A stretch of DNA of 51,497 bases from an uncultured Ignavibacteria bacterium (GCA_937873695.1 CALMYL010000003.1:1-51497); one strand, 5' to 3'. Positions 38,915 to 49,173 are shown, counted from the stretch's first letter. The notes: generated by a model from the sequence alone, not told the origin. Numbers and translations are program-made.

Positions 38915-39757
38915 TCATAATTCGAGTTTTTTATTCCTTTTACGCAAATGATTCAAAGATGATCTTACTGCCCTTTGTACAACCGGAGAATCATCATTTG
39001 CCAGTATCCTTAAATACTTAATTGCTTCATTGGGGTAATTGTTTCCAAAGCTGTTATTAAAAGCCATGGCAACATTCCACCTGACATGCGGATCTTTTAT
39101 CTTTATCATTCTATACAGGAAGGCAAGGACAACATCAGGCATATTGTTGCCGTAATATGACCCAAGTATAAATGGTCCGAGATTTTTTTTCACATACTGC
39201 GAGCTGTCATACATCAGCGGCTCAAATAAACCAAAAGCTTTGCTGATCTTTTCAGGATCATTCTTATCACGCAGCGAAGCTGCTGCAAGCACAACACCGC
39301 GCCTGATATTTTCCGAGCTATCTTTCACCCACTTCTTTAATGTGGAATAAAATTCAGGATTTGCCGCAAGAGTACCGCCTAACGCTCCAGCCGCATACTC
39401 GCGTACTTCCCAATTACTGTCATCGGTGATTTTATGCAGCCATTTTGTAACAGCAGCTTTATTGTATTTATATCCGCGCCATAAAATATGAATGCCGACT
39501 TCCTTTGCGTTATCGGAATTTAATTTGAGAATGTTTAAACCTGATTTATAAAATTCGCGTTCGGGATTTTTATGATTCGCGTTAGTAATATACCTGACAA
39601 TTTCAGAGATAACATACCGCTTATCTTTCATCTTGGCAGTACCTGAGTGCTTGGTGGAAATTTTATCAAGCTCAGCAATAATTTTTTTGTAATTCTGCTT
39701 ACTTAATGCTGTTTCAATTACTGCTTTTTGCTTTTTGGTTAGAAGTGTATCTTTCAT
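38915..39757 (-). CDS. HEAT-repeat protein, AlkD-like DNA alkylation repair family
   Basis: 280 residues from ATG 39757; five more codons upstream are possible. All-helical with HEAT-like repeats of about 38 residues (DDSNWEVREYAAGALGG, DSSENIRRGVVLAAASL, KDPHVRWNVAMAFNNS, DDSPVVQRAVRSSLNHL). The W-E-V-R-E-Y-A block is the alkylpurine glycosylase AlkC/AlkD signature. Such enzymes excise N3- and N7-alkylated purines. The C-terminus is Lys/Arg-rich. The ATG at 39757 follows a TATCTTTG box by four bases, suggesting a leaderless transcript. Confidence 0.75.
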   Translation of the reverse strand: MKDTLLTKKQKAVIETALSKQNYKKIIAELDKISTKHSGTAKMKDKRYVISEIVRYITNANHKNPEREFYKSGLNILKLNSDNAKEVGIHILWRGYKYNKAAVTKWLHKITDDSNWEVREYAAGALGGTLAANPEFYSTLKKWVKDSSENIRRGVVLAAASLRDKNDPEKISKAFGLFEPLMYDSSQYVKKNLGPFILGSYYGNNMPDVVLAFLYRMIKIKDPHVRWNVAMAFNNSFGNNYPNEAIKYLRILANDDSPVVQRAVRSSLNHLRKRNKKLEL

Positions 39758-39761
39758 GTTA

Positions 39762-39769
39762 CAAAGATA
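39762..39769 (-). promoter_or_regulatory. TATCTTTG box before the AlkD-like gene
   Basis: On the minus strand TATCTTTG stands four bases before the ATG at 39757. It is the third window instance of this exact box placed 2-4 bases before an ATG. There is no clear -33 TTG. Confidence 0.35.
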
Positions 39770-39819
39770 CAAAAAATACTTTTGCCGTGGATATTTTCTT
39801 TAAAATGAAGATTAAAAAT

Positions 39820-40516: not shown

Positions 40517-40540
40517 TGGTGTCAGTTCTCACCAACACCA
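40517..40540 (-). terminator. probable terminator of the TPR-like gene
   Basis: TGGTGT-N12-ACACCA with A-run on the left (U-run on the minus strand), about 50 bases beyond the stop at 40593. The loop is long, so strength is uncertain. Confidence 0.5.
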
Positions 40541-40592: not shown

Positions 40593-41369
40593 TTACTTCT
40601 TCGCCTTATCATACTCCGTCATCACAAACCCTTTGATAAAACCTGATTCCGGCTTAACTTCAAGCGCCATATCGATCCATTTTTTGGCTTCATCAAGCTT
40701 ACCGTTCTGTATATAACACATTGCGACCATTCCCGCAGCCTGGTCATTACCCCAGTTGGGGTAAGTTTCATCTTTGGGTTTATAGGTTTTGGAGTATTCC
40801 CACGCTTTTTCAAACATCGGCTGCGCTTTATCAACGCCGCCGCCAAAACTTTCGGGGGTGTAGAAAGTCATATAGCCATCAACCAGGTAATACCTCGGAT
40901 TTTCAGGCTCAAGCTTCATGGCATTATCTTTGGCTTCCTGTGTTTTGGCAATGATATCATTCATCTTGTTCGGCTCATACTGCCAGCGGTTGCCCTGCGC
41001 AGCCATTTTCATAATGTACGCATCGGCAAACTGGTCGTTTACATCCGTGCATTTATCAAACAGGCTTATCGCGGATTCAGTGTACTTCTTCACATCATCA
41101 TTGTTCTTTTCTTCGGCGGCTGTGCGTGAAAGCATATAATCCAGAAATCCCAGGTAATAATTTACCATCCACTCATTTTTTTTAAGCTGCAGTATGCGCT
41201 CAAAATCACCACGGACCTTAAGCATGGCTGCTTTATCGTTCTTATCAGCCGCGTCACCCATTTTCTTCATGGCTTTAAGCATAGCGTCACTATAATCATC
41301 AGCGTAAGTGTTGCTGATTGAAATTAATCCTGCAATCAGGATAAAAAGTGTTAAAAAAGTTTTTTTCAT
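40593..41369 (-). CDS. periplasmic TPR-like protein
   Basis: 258 residues. Signal peptide at about 1-23 (ends TYAD). The rest is alpha-helical with TPR-like spacing: VNYYLGFLDYMLSR, DQFADAYIMKMAAQGNRW, ENPRYYLVDGYMTFY, QAAGMVAMCYIQNGKLDEAK. No catalytic motif is seen. Probably a periplasmic scaffold. It stands alone between a repeat-dense gap and a terminator, so context gives little help. Confidence 0.65.
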   Translation of the reverse strand: MKKTFLTLFILIAGLISISNTYADDYSDAMLKAMKKMGDAADKNDKAAMLKVRGDFERILQLKKNEWMVNYYLGFLDYMLSRTAAEEKNNDDVKKYTESAISLFDKCTDVNDQFADAYIMKMAAQGNRWQYEPNKMNDIIAKTQEAKDNAMKLEPENPRYYLVDGYMTFYTPESFGGGVDKAQPMFEKAWEYSKTYKPKDETYPNWGNDQAAGMVAMCYIQNGKLDEAKKWIDMALEVKPESGFIKGFVMTEYDKAKK

Positions 41370-41866: not shown

Positions 41867-44062
41867 CTAGAACTGTAATCCCAGCCCCATGTAAAACTGC
41901 CTTTTGTTGGTTGTAACAATCTCTTCGCGTTTGGTGTAATCGAAATTGTATGTATAGTCATAAAGATTTTTCTGATTCAGCAGATTGTTTATCTGGAAAA
42001 CCGCTATTGCGAACCTGCCGAAGAGTGAAAATATGTACTGAAAGTTCACGTCCATCCTCTGGTATGTTGGGAAGCGCCCGCTGTTGGTTTCAGCGTAAAC
42101 CGGCTGGTAAAGATTCAGGTTCGGATCATATATACCGCCTGTAACAGGCGTAAACGGTTTGCCGGTTGATACCCTGTATGTCAAACCCGTTGTAATAACA
42201 TCGCTGATATTGTAGCTGGCAACAAATGTTAGGTTATGGGTTATATCATAATTTGCCGATGTTTCATTCTGCGCCTCATACTGGCTGCGCTTTGAATCAG
42301 TGTATGCGTACGATATCCATGTGGAATATTTGTTTGTAATGCCTGATTTCAGGAATACATCAATTCCTTTTGCGTAACCCTTGCCATTTGATGTATAAAG
42401 AAAGTTGTTCTTATCGCGAAGCACAAGATCTTTATACTCTTTATAGTAACCTTCAACCCTGAAAAGGAATATTCCTTCCATTTTGTTCAATTCATACCCA
42501 AGTATATAGTGAGTTGCCTGTTCAGGCTTCAGGTTGTTGTTATCTGACTGGGCATAATACTCAAGCCTCGGGAACTGGTGATACAAACCAACCGCTCCGC
42601 GAAGCACCATATCTTTGGCGAATTTCCATCCCATGGAGAGCCTTGGGTCAACAACGGTTTTTTTGGAAAGCGTATGGTTATCCACCCTAACACCCGGTAT
42701 TACGAAAAATCTCTTTGCAGGTTTTATCTGAGCCTCAATGTAGCCGCCAATTCTGCCTGTGTGGTTAAGAGAATTAATATCAAAGTATGGCGCATTATTG
42801 CCAATTGCGTAGTTGTACTGCGGAACCCTGCCATCAAACCTGTCTTCGTTATACTCATATTCTCCGCCTGTATTTAAATCAACATTTTTTGCAAGCTGGT
42901 GAGTAACATCAAGTCTGTATTTTGCGTAACGCTGCTTGGTTACTGTATTAAGCACACCGTATAATACATCATCAATGTGATTACTGTATGAAAGCCCCAT
43001 GCTGAAATATGTTTTTGAGCCGATTCCTGCTGAATACTTAAGATTTCCGAAAACTGTTTCAGAGCCTGAATTGAAGAATCCATCGTATGAAGGACTTGTA
43101 TTCCTGACGCCGATCTTATCTTTGCTGTAGTCAAATATTCCTTTCAGGTTACTGCTTTTTGATGGCTTCCACGCGAGTGATCCGCCCACTCCCCTGGCAA
43201 GCGGTATGGGGTCATACCTGTCTGTTAAATATCCATTGAGTTTAAAATATGGCTCAAGTATTGTCTGACCAATATCAATTGTCGCGCCGAAATCTTTGGT
43301 TTTATTCAGGTAAACACCGCTCATGCCAACATTGGCAAGGCCAAGCCACAGGAAACCGCCTGTGCCCTGCGGCATTTCGTAGGTTTTAAGGTCAAGCACT
43401 GCCGAAAGCACATTACCGAACTTAGCAGAAAATCCCCCGCTTGAAAAATTTATACCTCGCAGACCCCATGGATTAATTGTGGTGTATGATGAAGTATTAA
43501 AATCATCATCAAAAATAAACGGATTATATAGTGATGCCTGGTCTAATATAGTAAGCACTTCGTTCGCGTCTCCGCCGCGGACTGTTATGCGGCTGCCTTC
43601 ATCTACCTGGTTAGAGCCGGGGAAGGTTGTTATGGCACGGAAAAGATCACCATCACTGCCGGGAATTCTGACAATTTCCAGCGGCGTAATTGTCACCTGT
43701 GAATTCTGCCCCGATGTGTATGAGCTTGCAGTGACAATTATTTCTTCGGTTTCAACCACAGCTTTTTTAAGCTGTATGTTCAGTTCCATAGGCTTGCCTG
43801 ATTCAATGTTCACGGTCTGGCGTTTTTCGTTGTAATCTAAGTAAGTAAATAATAGATTCTGAACGCCTGTTTTGGATGTTTCAAATTCATAGTAGCCCGT
43901 TGAATCAGTTGTAGCGCCATCAATGGTACCTTCAATAACCACATTTGCTCCGAAGAGCGGTGCGTTCTGCTCCCCGGTTATTTTTCCTGATATCTTCACA
44001 TCCTGAGCAAAAGTGATGAATGAGGCGGTTAATATTAAAAAAAGTATAAGTAAATATTTCAT
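41867..44062 (-). CDS. TonB-dependent outer-membrane receptor
   Basis: 731 residues. Signal peptide at about 1-19 (ends TFAQ), a carboxypeptidase-D regulatory-like domain at about 22-105 (ISGKITGEQNAPLFGANVVI, TTDSTGYYEF), a plug at about 125-225 (FRAITTFPGSNQVDEGSRIT, VRGGDANEVLTILD), and a barrel ending YMGLGLQF. Shorter than the receptor at 10500 and with a different barrel, so a different ligand is expected. No SusD-like or ABC partner lies nearby. The ATG is 26 bases after the 2TM gene's end on the same strand, so it may be read from the upstream membrane operon. Confidence 0.88.
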   Translation of the reverse strand: MKYLLILFLILTASFITFAQDVKISGKITGEQNAPLFGANVVIEGTIDGATTDSTGYYEFETSKTGVQNLLFTYLDYNEKRQTVNIESGKPMELNIQLKKAVVETEEIIVTASSYTSGQNSQVTITPLEIVRIPGSDGDLFRAITTFPGSNQVDEGSRITVRGGDANEVLTILDQASLYNPFIFDDDFNTSSYTTINPWGLRGINFSSGGFSAKFGNVLSAVLDLKTYEMPQGTGGFLWLGLANVGMSGVYLNKTKDFGATIDIGQTILEPYFKLNGYLTDRYDPIPLARGVGGSLAWKPSKSSNLKGIFDYSKDKIGVRNTSPSYDGFFNSGSETVFGNLKYSAGIGSKTYFSMGLSYSNHIDDVLYGVLNTVTKQRYAKYRLDVTHQLAKNVDLNTGGEYEYNEDRFDGRVPQYNYAIGNNAPYFDINSLNHTGRIGGYIEAQIKPAKRFFVIPGVRVDNHTLSKKTVVDPRLSMGWKFAKDMVLRGAVGLYHQFPRLEYYAQSDNNNLKPEQATHYILGYELNKMEGIFLFRVEGYYKEYKDLVLRDKNNFLYTSNGKGYAKGIDVFLKSGITNKYSTWISYAYTDSKRSQYEAQNETSANYDITHNLTFVASYNISDVITTGLTYRVSTGKPFTPVTGGIYDPNLNLYQPVYAETNSGRFPTYQRMDVNFQYIFSLFGRFAIAVFQINNLLNQKNLYDYTYNFDYTKREEIVTTNKRQFYMGLGLQF

Positions 44063-44088: not shown

Positions 44089-44388
44089 TTAATTTTTATT
44101 TATCAGTTTATCATATTCTTTTTCCCTCAGCGACTCTACATTACCTGAATAAGCGGCGATGTAACTTATTGCCAGTCCCACACCCCATCCCAGTGTTACA
44201 AAAACGGGCCAGGGGAAATCAAAATCACTGTGCCTGTATGAATTGAATGCCCAGAATCCCCAAAGAAATGCGTTAATAATTAAATATGTTAATGCATGTT
44301 TCTTGAATTCCGCTCTTCTTTTTGCAAGCTTCCACAGTCTTTCATCTCTTTGCTGCGCGCCGGTATTGATATTATTTTGATTATCCAT
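44089..44388 (-). CDS. 2TM-domain protein
   Basis: 99 residues. A polar N-terminus with Arg/Lys-rich AKRRAEFKKHALTYLIINAF leads into two transmembrane helices (about 32-49 and 60-80), then a short acidic-basic tail. This is the 2TM domain (PF13239 type), often found alone or fused to histidine kinases of the LytS class. It lies between the winged-helix regulator (separated by the heptamer repeat) and the TonB receptor gene, all on the minus strand. Confidence 0.75.
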   Translation of the reverse strand: MDNQNNINTGAQQRDERLWKLAKRRAEFKKHALTYLIINAFLWGFWAFNSYRHSDFDFPWPVFVTLGWGVGLAISYIAAYSGNVESLREKEYDKLINKN

Positions 44389-44440
44389 AATTTTATGTTT
44401 TAAAATTTTTGATTTAATTAAATTGTTAATTGCTCATTGC

Positions 44441-44488
44441 TAATTGTTAATTGTTAATTGTTAATTGTTAATTGTTAATTGTTAATTG
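44441..44488. repeat. heptamer tandem repeat TAATTGT x 6.9
   Basis: Six perfect 7-bp units plus six bases of a seventh, with degenerate units further left. It begins two bases beyond the regulator's stop and ends 53 bases upstream of the 2TM protein start. A pure heptamer of this length is prone to slippage and could change spacing of any promoter for the 2TM gene. Confidence 0.9.
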
Positions 44489-44490
44489 GC

Positions 44491-44787
44491 CTACCGCTTT
44501 ATTATGCTCTCAAGTTTTTTAATATAATCTTCAAATGCTTTTCTCCCAACTTCAGTAATTTTATATCTTGTTACAGGTTTTCGGTCAACAAATTCTTTCT
44601 GAACCGAAATATAGTTATGTTCTTCAAGCTTTTTTAAGTGTACGCTAAGATTACCGTCAGTCGCATTTATCTTTTCGCGGATAAATGTAAACTCAGCTTC
44701 ATCAACGCTTATCAGCACAGCCATTATGGCGGTGCGTATGCGCGAGTGTATTACATCATCTATTTCCTGGTAATTAAAATCAGTCAT
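44491..44787 (-). CDS. winged-helix transcriptional regulator (HTH_34 type)
   Basis: 98 residues from ATG 44787; the frame is open for 27 more codons upstream, but these overlap the preceding gene and are not needed for the fold. Helix-turn-helix and wing: IHSRIRTAIMAVLISVDEA, FIREKINATDGNLSVHLKKL, YISVQKEFVDRKPVTRYKIT, then an amphipathic helix for dimerisation. This is the ArsR/MarR-like winged-helix family PF13601. The ATG overlaps the stop of the upstream membrane protein by eight bases. It probably autoregulates the operon. Confidence 0.85.
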   Translation of the reverse strand: MTDFNYQEIDDVIHSRIRTAIMAVLISVDEAEFTFIREKINATDGNLSVHLKKLEEHNYISVQKEFVDRKPVTRYKITEVGRKAFEDYIKKLESIIKR

Positions 44788-45421
44788 TACTGGAATTCTT
44801 AGCTGCTTTCCACCTGGAGTATAAAATGAAGCCCGGAATGATCTGAAATAATACCAGCATTGCGGCAAATATCAGCATTGAGTGAATCCCGGGCTGAAAA
44901 AACATGAACAATGAACCAGACCACCAGCCAAATGCAATATACTTGAGCCATTTTACCTGCTGAATGGTACCGCTGATAAAATATGCGGCACCCAACACAC
45001 TGCTTATCATTGGAAAAATAAAGACAGGTTCATACGCGCCTGAGAGTGTTCCTGCAAAACCGAACATAAACATACATACTCCGGAAATGCCCCATAATAC
45101 ACTCAGCAGTTTCCCTGAAAAGGTTTTTTCTTTTTCATCTTTTTCTATCCTTTTGGTAATTATCATTTCCAGCAGTGATGCTGATATCATTGTTATAAAC
45201 CAAAGCATTCCCTGAGAGTTCATTGAGACTCTGTTCAATACCATCAGGTAATTAGCCAGCAGCGTAAGCGTTACTATAACGCCCCAATATATATAATGCC
45301 AGCCTTTATCGGCTACTGCATTTCGGCTATCCTGAACGATCTTTTTAATTATCTGCAATTCACTTTCCGCTAACAGATTTCTTTCAGTCTGGAACAGAGT
45401 ATTACTTTTATCGGCCGTCAT
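44780..45421 (-). CDS. six-helix membrane protein, paralogue 3 of 3
   Basis: 213 residues. An N-terminal amphipathic segment ESELQIIKKIVQDSRNAVAD precedes about six transmembrane helices. Motifs shared with both neighbours are I-K/R-x-x-M/V-x-DSR, EK-x(2-4)-F-x-GK before helix 3, G-x-x-Y/F-x-x-G-x-I-x-Q near 155, and F-GWW-x-G near 170, ending PGFILYSRWK. I do not recognise a named family. It overlaps the next gene upstream by 14 bases and the regulator gene downstream by eight, so all are translationally coupled. Confidence 0.75.
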   Translation of the reverse strand: MTADKSNTLFQTERNLLAESELQIIKKIVQDSRNAVADKGWHYIYWGVIVTLTLLANYLMVLNRVSMNSQGMLWFITMISASLLEMIITKRIEKDEKEKTFSGKLLSVLWGISGVCMFMFGFAGTLSGAYEPVFIFPMISSVLGAAYFISGTIQQVKWLKYIAFGWWSGSLFMFFQPGIHSMLIFAAMLVLFQIIPGFILYSRWKAAKNSSND

Positions 45422-46004
45422 TTTTGATCCCTTCTATCTTTGGAAGCATTATCATGAATAACAGCATTACCGCCAGAAATAATAAACAATGCATACTGGG
45501 AAAAAAGAAGAAGAAGCCTGCCCCTGCCCACCAAACAAACGCAAACAGCTTTAAGCTTTTTAATTGCTGAATTACACCAACCAGGTAAAAGGCCATTCCC
45601 AACACAACTGAATCAACAGGTACAATATATACAGGGTTAAAAGCGCGCAAAAATCCGGAGGCCATTGCAAAAATTAAATTTGCACCGCCTGCGGCAATCC
45701 CAATAGATGTCAATATTTTCCCTGTAAAAGTTTTTACACGGATAGTCTTTTTTTCTTTTTTTGCAATTTTAACAGAACCTGCTGTGCCTGTCAAAACCGC
45801 TGCCAGCCACAACAATCCGGTGTATTCAATACCTGTATTGAAAATTATCATTAAGTAGTTTACAAGTACTGCCGGTGCCATTACCAAGGTCCAGAATGTA
45901 CCCAGCTTACTCGTATCATAAACAGCTTTCCTGCTGTCTTCCATAACTTTCCTTATCAGAGAAAGTTCAAGCTCTGCCTGTTGTTTGCTTAAATTAGGCT
46001 GCAT
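45408..46004 (-). CDS. six-helix membrane protein, paralogue 2 of 3
   Basis: 198 residues with the same plan: QQAELELSLIRKVMEDSRKA, then helices, a basic loop (KKEKKTIRVKTFTGK), YLVGVIQQLKSLK and FVWWAG in the fifth to sixth helix region. It has FVWWAG where the others have FGWW(A/S)G. The start codon lies inside the end of paralogue 1 (11-base overlap). Probably part of a hetero-oligomeric membrane complex; function unknown. Confidence 0.75.
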   Translation of the reverse strand: MQPNLSKQQAELELSLIRKVMEDSRKAVYDTSKLGTFWTLVMAPAVLVNYLMIIFNTGIEYTGLLWLAAVLTGTAGSVKIAKKEKKTIRVKTFTGKILTSIGIAAGGANLIFAMASGFLRAFNPVYIVPVDSVVLGMAFYLVGVIQQLKSLKLFAFVWWAGAGFFFFFPSMHCLLFLAVMLLFMIMLPKIEGIKNDGR

Positions 46005-46593
46005 TGTTCTCTTTCTTCCATTTGTTATACATTAAATAGCCGGGTAATACCTGCATAAAGATTATCATTAATGCGAAGAGCAGCAAAGTGTGGGGTGAGT
46101 ACCAGAAGAACATAACCAGCGCACCGGCCCACCATCCAAAACTAAGATAGCGGAAAGTTTTATCGTTATAAATAACACCGCTTACAAAAAAAGCCGCGGC
46201 AAGTACACATGCCATAAGCGGTGAAATTCCCATACCCTTCACAAGTCCGGTATACGAACCCACAAAACCTATGATCGTCATAGTAATTCCTGCGGATCCC
46301 CAAATAGCCCCTGCGACTTTTCCGGCGAATGAAACCGCTTTACGTTCTTTCTTTTCCCTGCGTAGCTGAAATATGGTTATCAACCAGCCAAGGCCAATCA
46401 ATGCGAACCAGGCAATACTTGTGATGTTCCATTCAATGTAACCCAGCACAGATAAATACGAAGATATCAATCCTATTGCTACCAAAGAGCCCCATAGAAT
46501 AAAACCGGTGCCGTCATCAACCATAATACGCCGGCTGTCTTCCATGATGCGTTTTATCTCGGAAAGTTCAAGTTCTGCCTGTTTTATATCCAT
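45994..46593 (-). CDS. six-helix membrane protein, paralogue 1 of 3
   Basis: 199 residues, first gene of the operon. The N-terminus MDIKQAELELSEIKRIMEDS is followed by R and a short acidic loop, then about six helices with the basic loop RREKKERKAVSFAGK, the stretch FFVSGVIYNDKTFRYLSFGW, and the end PGYLMYNKWKK. The conserved cytosolic DSR segment in all three paralogues suggests a shared interaction surface, possibly with the regulator. A clear promoter lies 58 bases upstream. Confidence 0.75.
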   Translation of the reverse strand: MDIKQAELELSEIKRIMEDSRRIMVDDGTGFILWGSLVAIGLISSYLSVLGYIEWNITSIAWFALIGLGWLITIFQLRREKKERKAVSFAGKVAGAIWGSAGITMTIIGFVGSYTGLVKGMGISPLMACVLAAAFFVSGVIYNDKTFRYLSFGWWAGALVMFFWYSPHTLLLFALMIIFMQVLPGYLMYNKWKKENNAA

Positions 46594-46650
46594 TCTTCAA
46601 AAATTGGTTTATTTTCACAAATTTTGCACTTTATTTTTTAAAGTACTTTA

Positions 46651-46681
46651 CAAATATAACTGGTGATAAATGATTTGTCAA
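46651..46681 (-). promoter_or_regulatory. Bacteroidota-type promoter of the membrane operon
   Basis: Minus strand: TTG (complement at 46679-46681) and 20 bases later TATATTTG (complement at 46651-46658), matching TTTG-N19-TAnnTTTG closely. It lies 58 bases before the first membrane protein ATG at 46593. Confidence 0.6.
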
Positions 46682-46716: not shown

Positions 46717-46740
46717 AAGGCACTTTGGGAAAAGTGCCTT
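46717..46740 (-). terminator. intrinsic terminator of the sorting-tail gene
   Basis: AAGGCACTTT-GGGA-AAGTGCCTT, a 10-bp stem with AAAAAA on the left giving a U-run on the minus strand, 24 bases past the stop at 46764. Confidence 0.85.
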
Positions 46741-46763: not shown

Positions 46764-47537
46764 CTATTTAACCAACACCATTTTCATTGTTTTTGTGAAA
46801 TGTTTGCCCCCTCCTTCAGCCATGATCCGGTAGAAATACATACCGCTGGCAAGATTTGAACCGTCAAATTCAATTGAGTAGAAATCTGCGCTCTTAAATT
46901 CATCTATCAAAGTGAACACTTCCTTCCCTAAAATATCATAAACCTTCAGGCTTACCTTTCCTTCAAAAGGGATCTCATAATCTATTTTACATTTTGGATT
47001 TGAGGGATTCGGATAGTTTTGCGACAATACATAATCATTTGGTGCTTTTATTACAACTGTTTCACCAAGATCATAATATTCATAGTTGCCGTTATAATCA
47101 ATTTGTTTTAACCTGTAATTATATGAGCCGGCTTTTAACTTCTTTTCTTCATAGGAATAGAATTTCTGACCCTGCGTAGTTCCTCCGCCCGTGATAAATG
47201 CAATTTTGCCCCAACTGCTGCCTTCTTTTGATTCTTTCCTTTCAAGATCAAACCCTAAGTTATTAAGTTCCCATTCAGTTACCCAATTTAACTTTACGTT
47301 ATTTTTTTCAACCGATGAAGTAAAGGATGAGAGTGATACCGGCAGCGCTCCTGTACAGATCGTTCCTGTTCCGCTGTAGGTGCCGTTAATAAAAATATCA
47401 TTAGCGCATACATCCGCACCGGCGTCTATATCGATTAAAGTACCGTTTCCATAGTCTATTGTGCTGTATACCTGGCCAAAGATTCTTGCTGCTAACAGCA
47501 AAATTAAGGCTATCATGGTTTTATTCCGGATTCTCAT
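46764..47537 (-). CDS. small secreted protein with T9SS sorting domain
   Basis: 257 residues. Signal peptide (RIRNKTMIALILLLAARIFG). A Gly/Asp-rich beta region to about 60, a fibronectin-like module at about 62-165 (VSLSSFTSSVEKNNVKLNWV, NYRLKQIDYNGNYEYYD), then a sorting domain with variant motif NYPNPSNPKCKIDYEI. The second Pro-Asn-Pro is altered compared with NYPNPFNP elsewhere. The start lies inside the end of the S74 gene (17-base overlap), so the pair is co-translated. Confidence 0.8.
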   Translation of the reverse strand: MRIRNKTMIALILLLAARIFGQVYSTIDYGNGTLIDIDAGADVCANDIFINGTYSGTGTICTGALPVSLSSFTSSVEKNNVKLNWVTEWELNNLGFDLERKESKEGSSWGKIAFITGGGTTQGQKFYSYEEKKLKAGSYNYRLKQIDYNGNYEYYDLGETVVIKAPNDYVLSQNYPNPSNPKCKIDYEIPFEGKVSLKVYDILGKEVFTLIDEFKSADFYSIEFDGSNLASGMYFYRIMAEGGGKHFTKTMKMVLVK

Positions 47538-49173
47538 TGCTTATAACCTTCAGTAAGTTTTCCTTACTTTTAGACTGACAAGCTGATACTTCAAGGACAA
47601 CCAATCTACTGTTCAACTTCCCGATTTGAGTACTTAACATATCAATCATTTTTTTCAAATCATTTACCTCCAAAATCCCTGCGCTCAATTCTTCATTTTC
47701 CTTTTTTAGGGAATCACATTTTTGGCCAAGTTCCTGTATTGCTTTTACCATTATTGGCAGCAGGTTTCCCGGTGTTGCTTCCCATTTTTCTTGGTTATCT
47801 TTCAATACAAGGTTCAGCCATTCGGCATTTTCGGAGGTCTGGAGAGAATCCAGTTCCTGAGCTATGAATCCGGCGGTTGGCTCACTCCTCATTTTGCTGC
47901 CATCGGATGTGTTATTATCATACCACTCGCGTTTATCCCAGTTATAAATTCTCGGTCTAAGTTTTGAAATAAAACCAAGTCCCAAATTCAGGTCATGTAT
48001 ATTTTTTTTATCACGCCTGTCTGAGAGACTTGTGATTGTTGTTACATTGCATCGCAGAGATGTTACGGAATTATTTCCGAGTGTTATCTGGTTAGAAACA
48101 GTTGAAGAAGAAGGTTCAGTGTTATATCCTATCAATGTGTTGTTACTGCCTGAAACAATGTTTGAACCTGCCTGATAACCAATGACAGTATTTAACTGCC
48201 CTGTTGTATTGCCAGTAAATGAAAAGGCGCCCACAGAAGTATTTCCCGTGCCGCTGACATTTTCAATCATACTGTTGTGGCCAAGTGCTGTATTTGAACT
48301 GCCCGAAATATTCAGATTCATACTTCCAAAACCGAATGCGCAGTTGTTAATACCTATAGTACTATTTGTTAACGTCTGGCTTCCGAATCCACAGTTATAG
48401 TTACCGGTTGTATTTTCTTTTAATGACCAGTATCCGAATGATGAGTTAAAACTACCTGTAGTATTTTCATCCATAGAAGCAGTCCCAAATGAAGAATTGT
48501 AACTCCCCGTGGAATTATGTTTCAACGAATTAAAACCAAAAGTTGAATTATTACTACCTGTTGTATTCAAATAAAGGGCAAATGCCCCGAATCCGGAATT
48601 GTTGGAACCAATATTTGAGGTAAGCGTATTATATCCAAATGCTGAGTTGTTACCAGAGGTAGCATTGCTGTATAATGAACCTACGCCAAAAGCTGAATTA
48701 TAACTGCCTGTTGTATTAAAATACAAGGCACCTGAACCAAATGCCGAATTATCGGTACCCGATGCAGCCTTAAACAAAGAACGAAACCCCATAGCGGTAT
48801 TTCGGCTGCCAGTTGTTAACGAATTAAGAGAAAATTCTCCTATTCCGGTATTATAAGCTGCAGTTGTCATGGTGAAGTTACCGGAATAAATTCCCAGAAA
48901 AATGTTTCCGCCTATAGATCCCGCCCCGGTAAAATCATGAAGAAAACTCTGATTTCCCTTCTTAATTATTCCGCTTTCTGGCGATGTAGTTAAGGAAAGA
49001 TTTATGCTGCTATATATGCTTATCAGCCCATCAGTCTGCTTCAGGGTTAAGAAAGTTGTGCCCGCATCTTTTATTGTAAAAACTCCGGATGATCCAAGAG
49101 TATTGGTTATATGCTGCGTAAAAGCAGAATATGTAAAAAAAGAAAGTATAAAGAAAGTTTTGATTATTTTCAT
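47521..49173 (-). CDS. repeat protein with tail-fibre/S74 autoprocessing domain
   Basis: 550 residues. Signal peptide at about 1-19. Residues about 105-350 contain roughly 14 units of 17 residues, consensus NTTGSYNSAFGxxSLxx, likely a beta-roll or trimeric needle similar to adhesin heads. The S74 intramolecular chaperone starts near 383: SDRRDKKNI with the Ser384/Lys389 dyad used for self-cleavage in phage endosialidases, then GFIAQEL, and a coiled coil at 460-530. A trimeric surface fibre that releases its C-terminal chaperone is expected. The overlapping sorting-tail protein downstream may be its partner. Confidence 0.82.
   Translation of the reverse strand: MKIIKTFFILSFFTYSAFTQHITNTLGSSGVFTIKDAGTTFLTLKQTDGLISIYSSINLSLTTSPESGIIKKGNQSFLHDFTGAGSIGGNIFLGIYSGNFTMTTAAYNTGIGEFSLNSLTTGSRNTAMGFRSLFKAASGTDNSAFGSGALYFNTTGSYNSAFGVGSLYSNATSGNNSAFGYNTLTSNIGSNNSGFGAFALYLNTTGSNNSTFGFNSLKHNSTGSYNSSFGTASMDENTTGSFNSSFGYWSLKENTTGNYNCGFGSQTLTNSTIGINNCAFGFGSMNLNISGSSNTALGHNSMIENVSGTGNTSVGAFSFTGNTTGQLNTVIGYQAGSNIVSGSNNTLIGYNTEPSSSTVSNQITLGNNSVTSLRCNVTTITSLSDRRDKKNIHDLNLGLGFISKLRPRIYNWDKREWYDNNTSDGSKMRSEPTAGFIAQELDSLQTSENAEWLNLVLKDNQEKWEATPGNLLPIMVKAIQELGQKCDSLKKENEELSAGILEVNDLKKMIDMLSTQIGKLNSRLVVLEVSACQSKSKENLLKVISNENPE

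Follow-up and report, generated by a model that had tools for sequence, protein, structure and literature searches.

The window, by which we mean the whole 51,497-nucleotide stretch of DNA analysed here, from an uncultured Ignavibacteria bacterium (GCA_937873695.1 CALMYL010000003.1:1-51497), carries an operon in which genes for three paralogous membrane proteins (M1, M2 and M3, collectively M) are followed by genes for a winged-helix regulator (R), a 2TM-domain protein, a TonB-dependent receptor and a TPR protein. Its features are as follows:

46717-46740, minus strand: terminator-like hairpin of the upstream gene, 5′ boundary of the unit
about 46651-46681, minus strand: promoter TTGACA-N17-TATATTTG (TATATT(TG)), 11/12 consensus matches
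46628-46649, minus strand: putative operator AAAGTACTTTAAAAAATAAAGT, inverted repeats, position and sequence kept in relatives
45994-46593, minus strand: M1, six-helix membrane protein (199 aa)
45408-46004, minus strand: M2, six-helix membrane protein (198 aa), a fast-diverging duplicate
44780-45421, minus strand: M3, six-helix membrane protein (213 aa), inherited vertically
44491-44787, minus strand: R, HTH_34 winged-helix regulator (98 aa), recognition helix ATDGNLSVHLKKLE
44089-44388, minus strand: 2TM-domain protein (99 aa), PF13239, E = 3.5e-12
41867-44062, minus strand: TonB-dependent receptor (731 aa) with a CarboxypepD_reg-like domain, HusB-like partner by position
40593-41369, minus strand: HusA-like TPR protein (258 aa), secreted as judged by eye
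40517-40540, minus strand: terminator-like hairpin past the TPR gene, 3′ boundary of the unit

The original prediction, made from this DNA alone, had described three paralogous six-helix membrane proteins in overlapping genes that end with a small HTH_34 regulator, a promoter at the head and a heptamer repeat before a 2TM gene, and each of these elements was recovered. M1, M2 and M3 align end to end at 33-37% pairwise identity and have motifs in common (E-x-EL-x-x-I with DSR, K-x-F-x-GK and F-(G/V)WW), and M2 and M3 are the only relatives of M1 within their own genome. The overlaps, predicted as 8-14 bases, are 11 bp for M1/M2, 14 bp for M2/M3 and 8 bp for M3/R, with the ATG of R at 44787; the longest open reading frame would start R at 44868, an over-extension, the conserved start being 44787. 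The promoter is the top sigma-70-type match across the 6.7 kb region and is also compatible with Bacteroidota-type -33/-7 elements, and the same arrangement, TTGAC...TAnnTTTG and then the operator, recurs in many relatives. R is separated from the 2TM gene by 9.7 copies of the heptamer AATTGTT (44421-44488), an array that contains repeated weak promoter-like matches and for which no counterpart was noticed on reading the relatives; we weighed it as a candidate regulatory element and set it aside.

Where the prediction fell short was in the extent of the unit: its five genes are right, but the TonB-dependent receptor, the TPR gene and the operator at 46628-46649 were overlooked. The true unit is larger, running M-R-2TM-receptor-TPR protein, and a single transcript is likely to span the receptor and TPR genes, which in the window lie 498 bases apart. 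Of the 5′ neighbours, the gene at 46764-47537 encodes a protein that carries a type IX secretion sorting domain, and that at 47521-49173 a protein with a Peptidase_S74 chaperone tail; downstream, at 38915-39772, lies a gene for a HEAT-repeat protein (DNA_alkylation-like match) that is kept in about 10 relative neighbourhoods.

The M-R pair and its paralogue

At the loci examined, M is immediately followed by R in every case but the weakest hit (L170), and every M locus fetched phylum-wide has R adjoining. The junctions between the two genes are short or overlapping at most loci, and R is about 66-97% identical to that of the window at relative loci with enough sequence. The conserved element, judged by comparison of these loci, is the M-R pair, whose members appear almost inseparable. 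Within 52 neighbourhoods (51 relatives and the window), a clustering step placed a TonB-dependent receptor in 40 and a putatively secreted TPR protein in 36, both lower bounds given a simple greedy ORF picker and loci that end at contig ends. Gene orders vary (M-R-x-receptor-TPR, M-R-TPR-receptor and receptor-TPR-M-R). The 2TM protein stands beside R in most congeners and is a regular neighbour mainly within the genus. In the sister family a pterin-4a-carbinolamine-dehydratase-like gene (c5) lies between R and the receptor; we weighed it as a component of the system and set it aside as lineage-specific. In four congeners (L066, L070, L072 and L082), genes for an ABC ATPase and an ABC-2 permease, absent from the window's copy, head the operator-led M-R operon.

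R matches HTH_34 (PF13601) over positions 1-80/80 with 112.3 bits against a cut-off of 27 (E = 1.2e-32), far better than its PadR match, which at 21.6 bits falls under the cut-off of 27. By sequence, the closest solved structure is PH1061 (1ub9) of Pyrococcus horikoshii (E = 1.4e-7), an archaeal protein that is not known to have a membrane partner. A search for natural fusions of M with R led to long R frames, and those fetched were PAS-like fusions of another family rather than M fusions. In these proteins (L178-L185) an HTH_34 helix of the same class is joined to a domain that looks PAS-like by eye; they are about 325 residues long and come from a family with small genomes of 2-3 Mb. As predicted from their sequences, they show an R-type helix-turn-helix receiving sensor input.

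M is harder to place. Searches with M gave nothing over cut-off in Pfam and NCBIfam and no sequence match in the PDB, and a search for M3 on plasmids found no match. DUF7010 (PF22765), which M3 matches with 17.1 bits against a cut-off of 27 and which 3 of 33 M members match at E values up to 0.01, may be a distant relative. The distribution of positive charges in the loops suggests that both termini of M are cytoplasmic.

A paralogous pair, M′-R′, is headed by the second operator site of the genome (below) and comprises a protein with the motif EIRxLMERSSxFxSLSG and then an HTH_34 gene, often followed by DUF4153. M′ was recovered by a broader M profile, and full-length alignment of M with M′ gave an hhalign E value of 1.7e-5 at a probability of only 78%. 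The window's own genome has such an M′-R′-DUF4153 arrangement (L145, 4701-7550). In a Bacteroides finegoldii record M′-R′ is followed by an annotated CreD; in a Persicobacter record the gene after M′-R′ is one that we take, from its sequence, to be CreD. A Parabacteroides distasonis record has the order DUF2141-outer-membrane protein-M-R with two GTTT..AAAC-type operators. As read from these neighbourhoods, the dyad is the constant part and the output (HusA-like, DUF4153 or CreD) the variable one. At two further loci (L149 and L151) an operator precedes a DUF4153-like gene or a small membrane protein gene while M′-R′ is encoded elsewhere in the genome, and these genes are probably regulated in trans.

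A predicted operator and the recognition helix of R

An inverted repeat straight behind the -7 box is common to the leaders of M genes. In the window this predicted operator starts about 2 bp past the box and overlaps the expected transcription start. Its specific form is unique within three mismatches, and a degenerate form, ACTTTR-N5-YAAAGYRCTTT, gave about 59 matches in 29 of 32 genomes, compared with 2 for a reversed control pattern. Only two sites in the window's own genome match the degenerate operator, one at each of the two HTH_34 genes that are all it has: the site described here and that at M′-R′ (G000:C13:94700).

The operator also occurs away from M. Separate HusA-like/receptor units have their own copy ahead of them (L089, L090, L092, L094, L096-L100, L110 and L113), as do receptors that are the first gene of their unit (L101, L102, L104, L105, L160, L164, L165 and L168) and the ABC ATPase/permease genes of L066, L070, L072 and L082; therefore M, R, the receptor, the TPR protein and the ABC genes would form one regulon. 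At 14 loci the script called no operator, and several of these carry one further upstream, before an ABC gene or another first gene.

Operator and regulator vary together. Where R has the sequence TDGNLS, the operator is of the CTTT..AAAG form at 42/42 loci; where it has TAGNLS or TKGNLS, the form is GTTT..AAAC at 17 of 18, the exception being L167. This covariation (42:0 vs 1:17) gives a Fisher P of 5e-14, a nominal value that overstates independence, as the loci are related. The switch in operator tracks the sub-type of R across several families. That R reads this operator is well supported by these comparisons, and since the operator lies directly behind the -7 box, R would act as a repressor. 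The original prediction of an undescribed operon under its own regulator gains support in turn, as M and R are linked phylum-wide and the predicted site for R lies in the operon's own leader. Within the open-access literature, no description was found of HTH_34, DUF4153, 2TM or M-type operons.

The HusA-like carrier and its receptor

HusA (PG_2227; PMC10913741, PMC6173696) is a secreted, TPR-like carrier of porphyrin and haem in Porphyromonas gingivalis, thought to partner the TonB receptor HusB (PMC6173696). The TPR protein of the window matches HusA (6bqs/6crl) over residues 40-222 (phmmer E = 3e-15), and a profile of the window's family does so over 40-223 with an E value of 2.3e-36, whereas with generic TPR proteins the matches are confined to short runs of repeats. 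Judged by eye, its N terminus, MKKTFLTLFILIAGLISISNTYADD, resembles a signal peptide. The receptor scores over the cut-off for the beta-barrel (PF00593, E = 1e-23) and just under it for the plug (PF07715, 22.4 bits against 23.9), and it had no sequence match among solved structures.

The two systems have in common a TPR-like protein, secreted in P. gingivalis and putatively so in the window, with a TonB-dependent receptor (PMC6173696), and their carriers share the core NPRxY..YTPxxFGGGxDKAxP..EK..PxWG. In the window, the carrier and receptor are predicted to stand under an M-R dyad. The groove that holds porphyrin or haem in HusA is hydrophobic and includes L123, V124, W130 and Y164 (PMC6173696). 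The equivalent of Tyr164 is Y170 in the window's protein; since this position is aromatic in just 25 of 35 family members, haem binding is possibly not general in the family. By homology to HusA, the ligand of the carrier is most likely porphyrin, haem or a similar hydrophobic compound.

Of the 392 genomes that sample the phylum, 127 (about a third) have HusA-like genes. These genes are present in 32 of the 43 genomes with M versus 95 of the 349 others, and are also found without M-R. The HusA authors regarded HusA as the sole porphyrin-binding TPR-like fold known, and proposed that it had been co-opted as Porphyromonas evolved (PMC6173696). Reports on the expression of the Hus system differ: one study describes it as neither iron- nor haem-dependent (PMC10913741), and another saw HusA only under iron limitation (PMC6173696).

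A proposed membrane-linked switch

We propose that M and R form a dyad of a membrane protein and a winged-helix autorepressor that controls a HusA/HusB-like uptake operon, a reading to which we give a probability of about 0.58. Its footing in the sequences is the linkage of M and R, the operator, the covariation of operator and helix and the presence of the operator at target genes. The steps that would turn these into a switch, namely repression rather than activation, contact between M and R, the signal and the ligand, we infer as follows. R, a small autorepressor and presumably a dimer, would bind ACTTTR-N5-YAAAGYACTTT behind the -7 box and keep the operon off. M would be a polytopic inner-membrane protein with its N and C termini inside, and its conserved N-terminal cytoplasmic helix (L-x-x-I-K/R-x-x-M-E-x-S) a likely docking surface for R. 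On meeting a signal in the membrane or periplasm, M would hold R off the DNA and the operon would come on. The output would be a pair resembling HusA and HusB, in which a TPR-fold carrier is secreted and works with a TonB-dependent receptor, and, in some congeners, an ABC-2 exporter as well.

How many copies of M does such a device need? The original prediction suggested that M1, M2 and M3 make up a hetero-trimeric or graded membrane sensor or transporter, and their tight translational coupling in the four genomes of the genus that have all three copies, the window's included, speaks for it. However, one copy is enough in most genomes: M is present, mostly as a single copy, in 33 of 59 relatives, and of the 43 genomes with M among 392 phylum-wide, 36 have one match. 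The copies also differ in origin. In the tree M3 groups with the M proteins that are single-copy in the genus, M2 branches within the genus on a long stem, and M1 falls within a separate, divergent lineage; in one relative (L006) M1 is the sole M and is paired with R. Since single copies prevail and the origins in the tree differ, the three copies are best read as a lineage-specific elaboration rather than as core, and we consider an obligate complex of M1, M2 and M3 highly improbable. The prediction had also named an outcome that would count against it, homologues found mostly as single genes without the regulator; they are indeed mostly single genes, but the regulator is present beside them.

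In the main rival to the M-R switch, M would be a permease or channel that carries the ligand brought in by the receptor and the HusA-like protein across the inner membrane, with R a cytoplasmic, ligand-sensing repressor and the three copies widening the substrate range. Genes for an outer-membrane receptor and a putatively secreted carrier in the same regulon would suit such a role, as would a predicted M3 model of six helices, the first made up of the N-terminal helix and TM1, with a weak resemblance to the SatP and UreI channels. Built from 6 sequences, the model is weak (pLDDT 70, pTM 0.61, moderate), and searches with this moderate model returned only helical bundles (Foldseek E = 0.03 for UreI; VIA-align Z of 8-10 for UreI and SatP and of 12.8 for TMEM45A), matches that are under the level trusted for such folds. 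The M alignment has no invariant charged residue within the membrane helices, and what M and M′ most clearly have in common is their N-terminal helix, which is cytoplasmic. M-type proteins, moreover, keep their R partner where the output genes are others, DUF4153 and CreD among them, and we think the permease reading unlikely. It is also conceivable, if improbable, that M protects against membrane stress or acts as an immunity-type protein, with R as its repressor, the HusA/HusB-like proteins and ABC exporter then serving a detoxification or envelope-integrity response. The paralogous dyads do adjoin DUF4153 and CreD, annotated as a cell envelope integrity protein, four congeners have an ABC-2 exporter within the operon, and SdpI is both an immunity protein and a receptor (PMC1626106). 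However, HusA and TonB receptors are uptake-type proteins, and no toxin genes were recognised nearby.

If the M-R switch is correct, M′-R′, with its near-identical operator beside DUF4153 or CreD, would point to a general membrane-linked switch of the Bacteroidota with interchangeable outputs. More tentatively, and at slightly under even odds, M/M′-HTH_34 would be an undescribed, phylum-wide class of such switches, a split one-component system in place of two-component or anti-sigma signalling. The class would comprise two or more sub-classes (HusA/HusB-like uptake and CreD/DUF4153 envelope functions) and have an operator code readable in the recognition helix. All of the evidence is comparative, from loci related by descent. 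What is annotated as a "hypothetical protein" outside any Pfam family and a "transcriptional regulator" becomes a near-inseparable pair with a mapped predicted operator and defined targets. M-R-type pairs are also present in records of gut Bacteroides and Parabacteroides, and with an operator, helix positions and a short target list in hand, the hypothesis is cheap to test.

Two known systems resemble the proposed dyad. In Bacillus subtilis, SdpI takes the signal and sequesters the autorepressor SdpR at the membrane (PMC1626106). M-R would have in common with SdpI-SdpR the two-gene pairing of a polytopic membrane protein with a small autorepressor, and sequestration by M is what we propose. 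The differences are that none of 33 M proteins matches the SdpI Pfam family, the membrane protein gene comes first here, R is an HTH_34 protein and its operator also stands ahead of outer-membrane uptake genes. The HAAS-PadR dyad, proposed as an alternative to two-component systems (PMC11237479), likewise pairs a standalone winged helix-turn-helix protein, in every case, with a membrane protein whose N-terminal part is helical and cytoplasmic, and has interchangeable neighbours. Unlike that dyad, M has no HAAS/DUF1700 among its Pfam matches and no conserved GxP motif in the N-terminal part of its alignment, and R belongs to HTH_34, with PadR under cut-off. Because membership by sequence fails in both cases, we regard M-R as a member of neither family, but one that would work like both.
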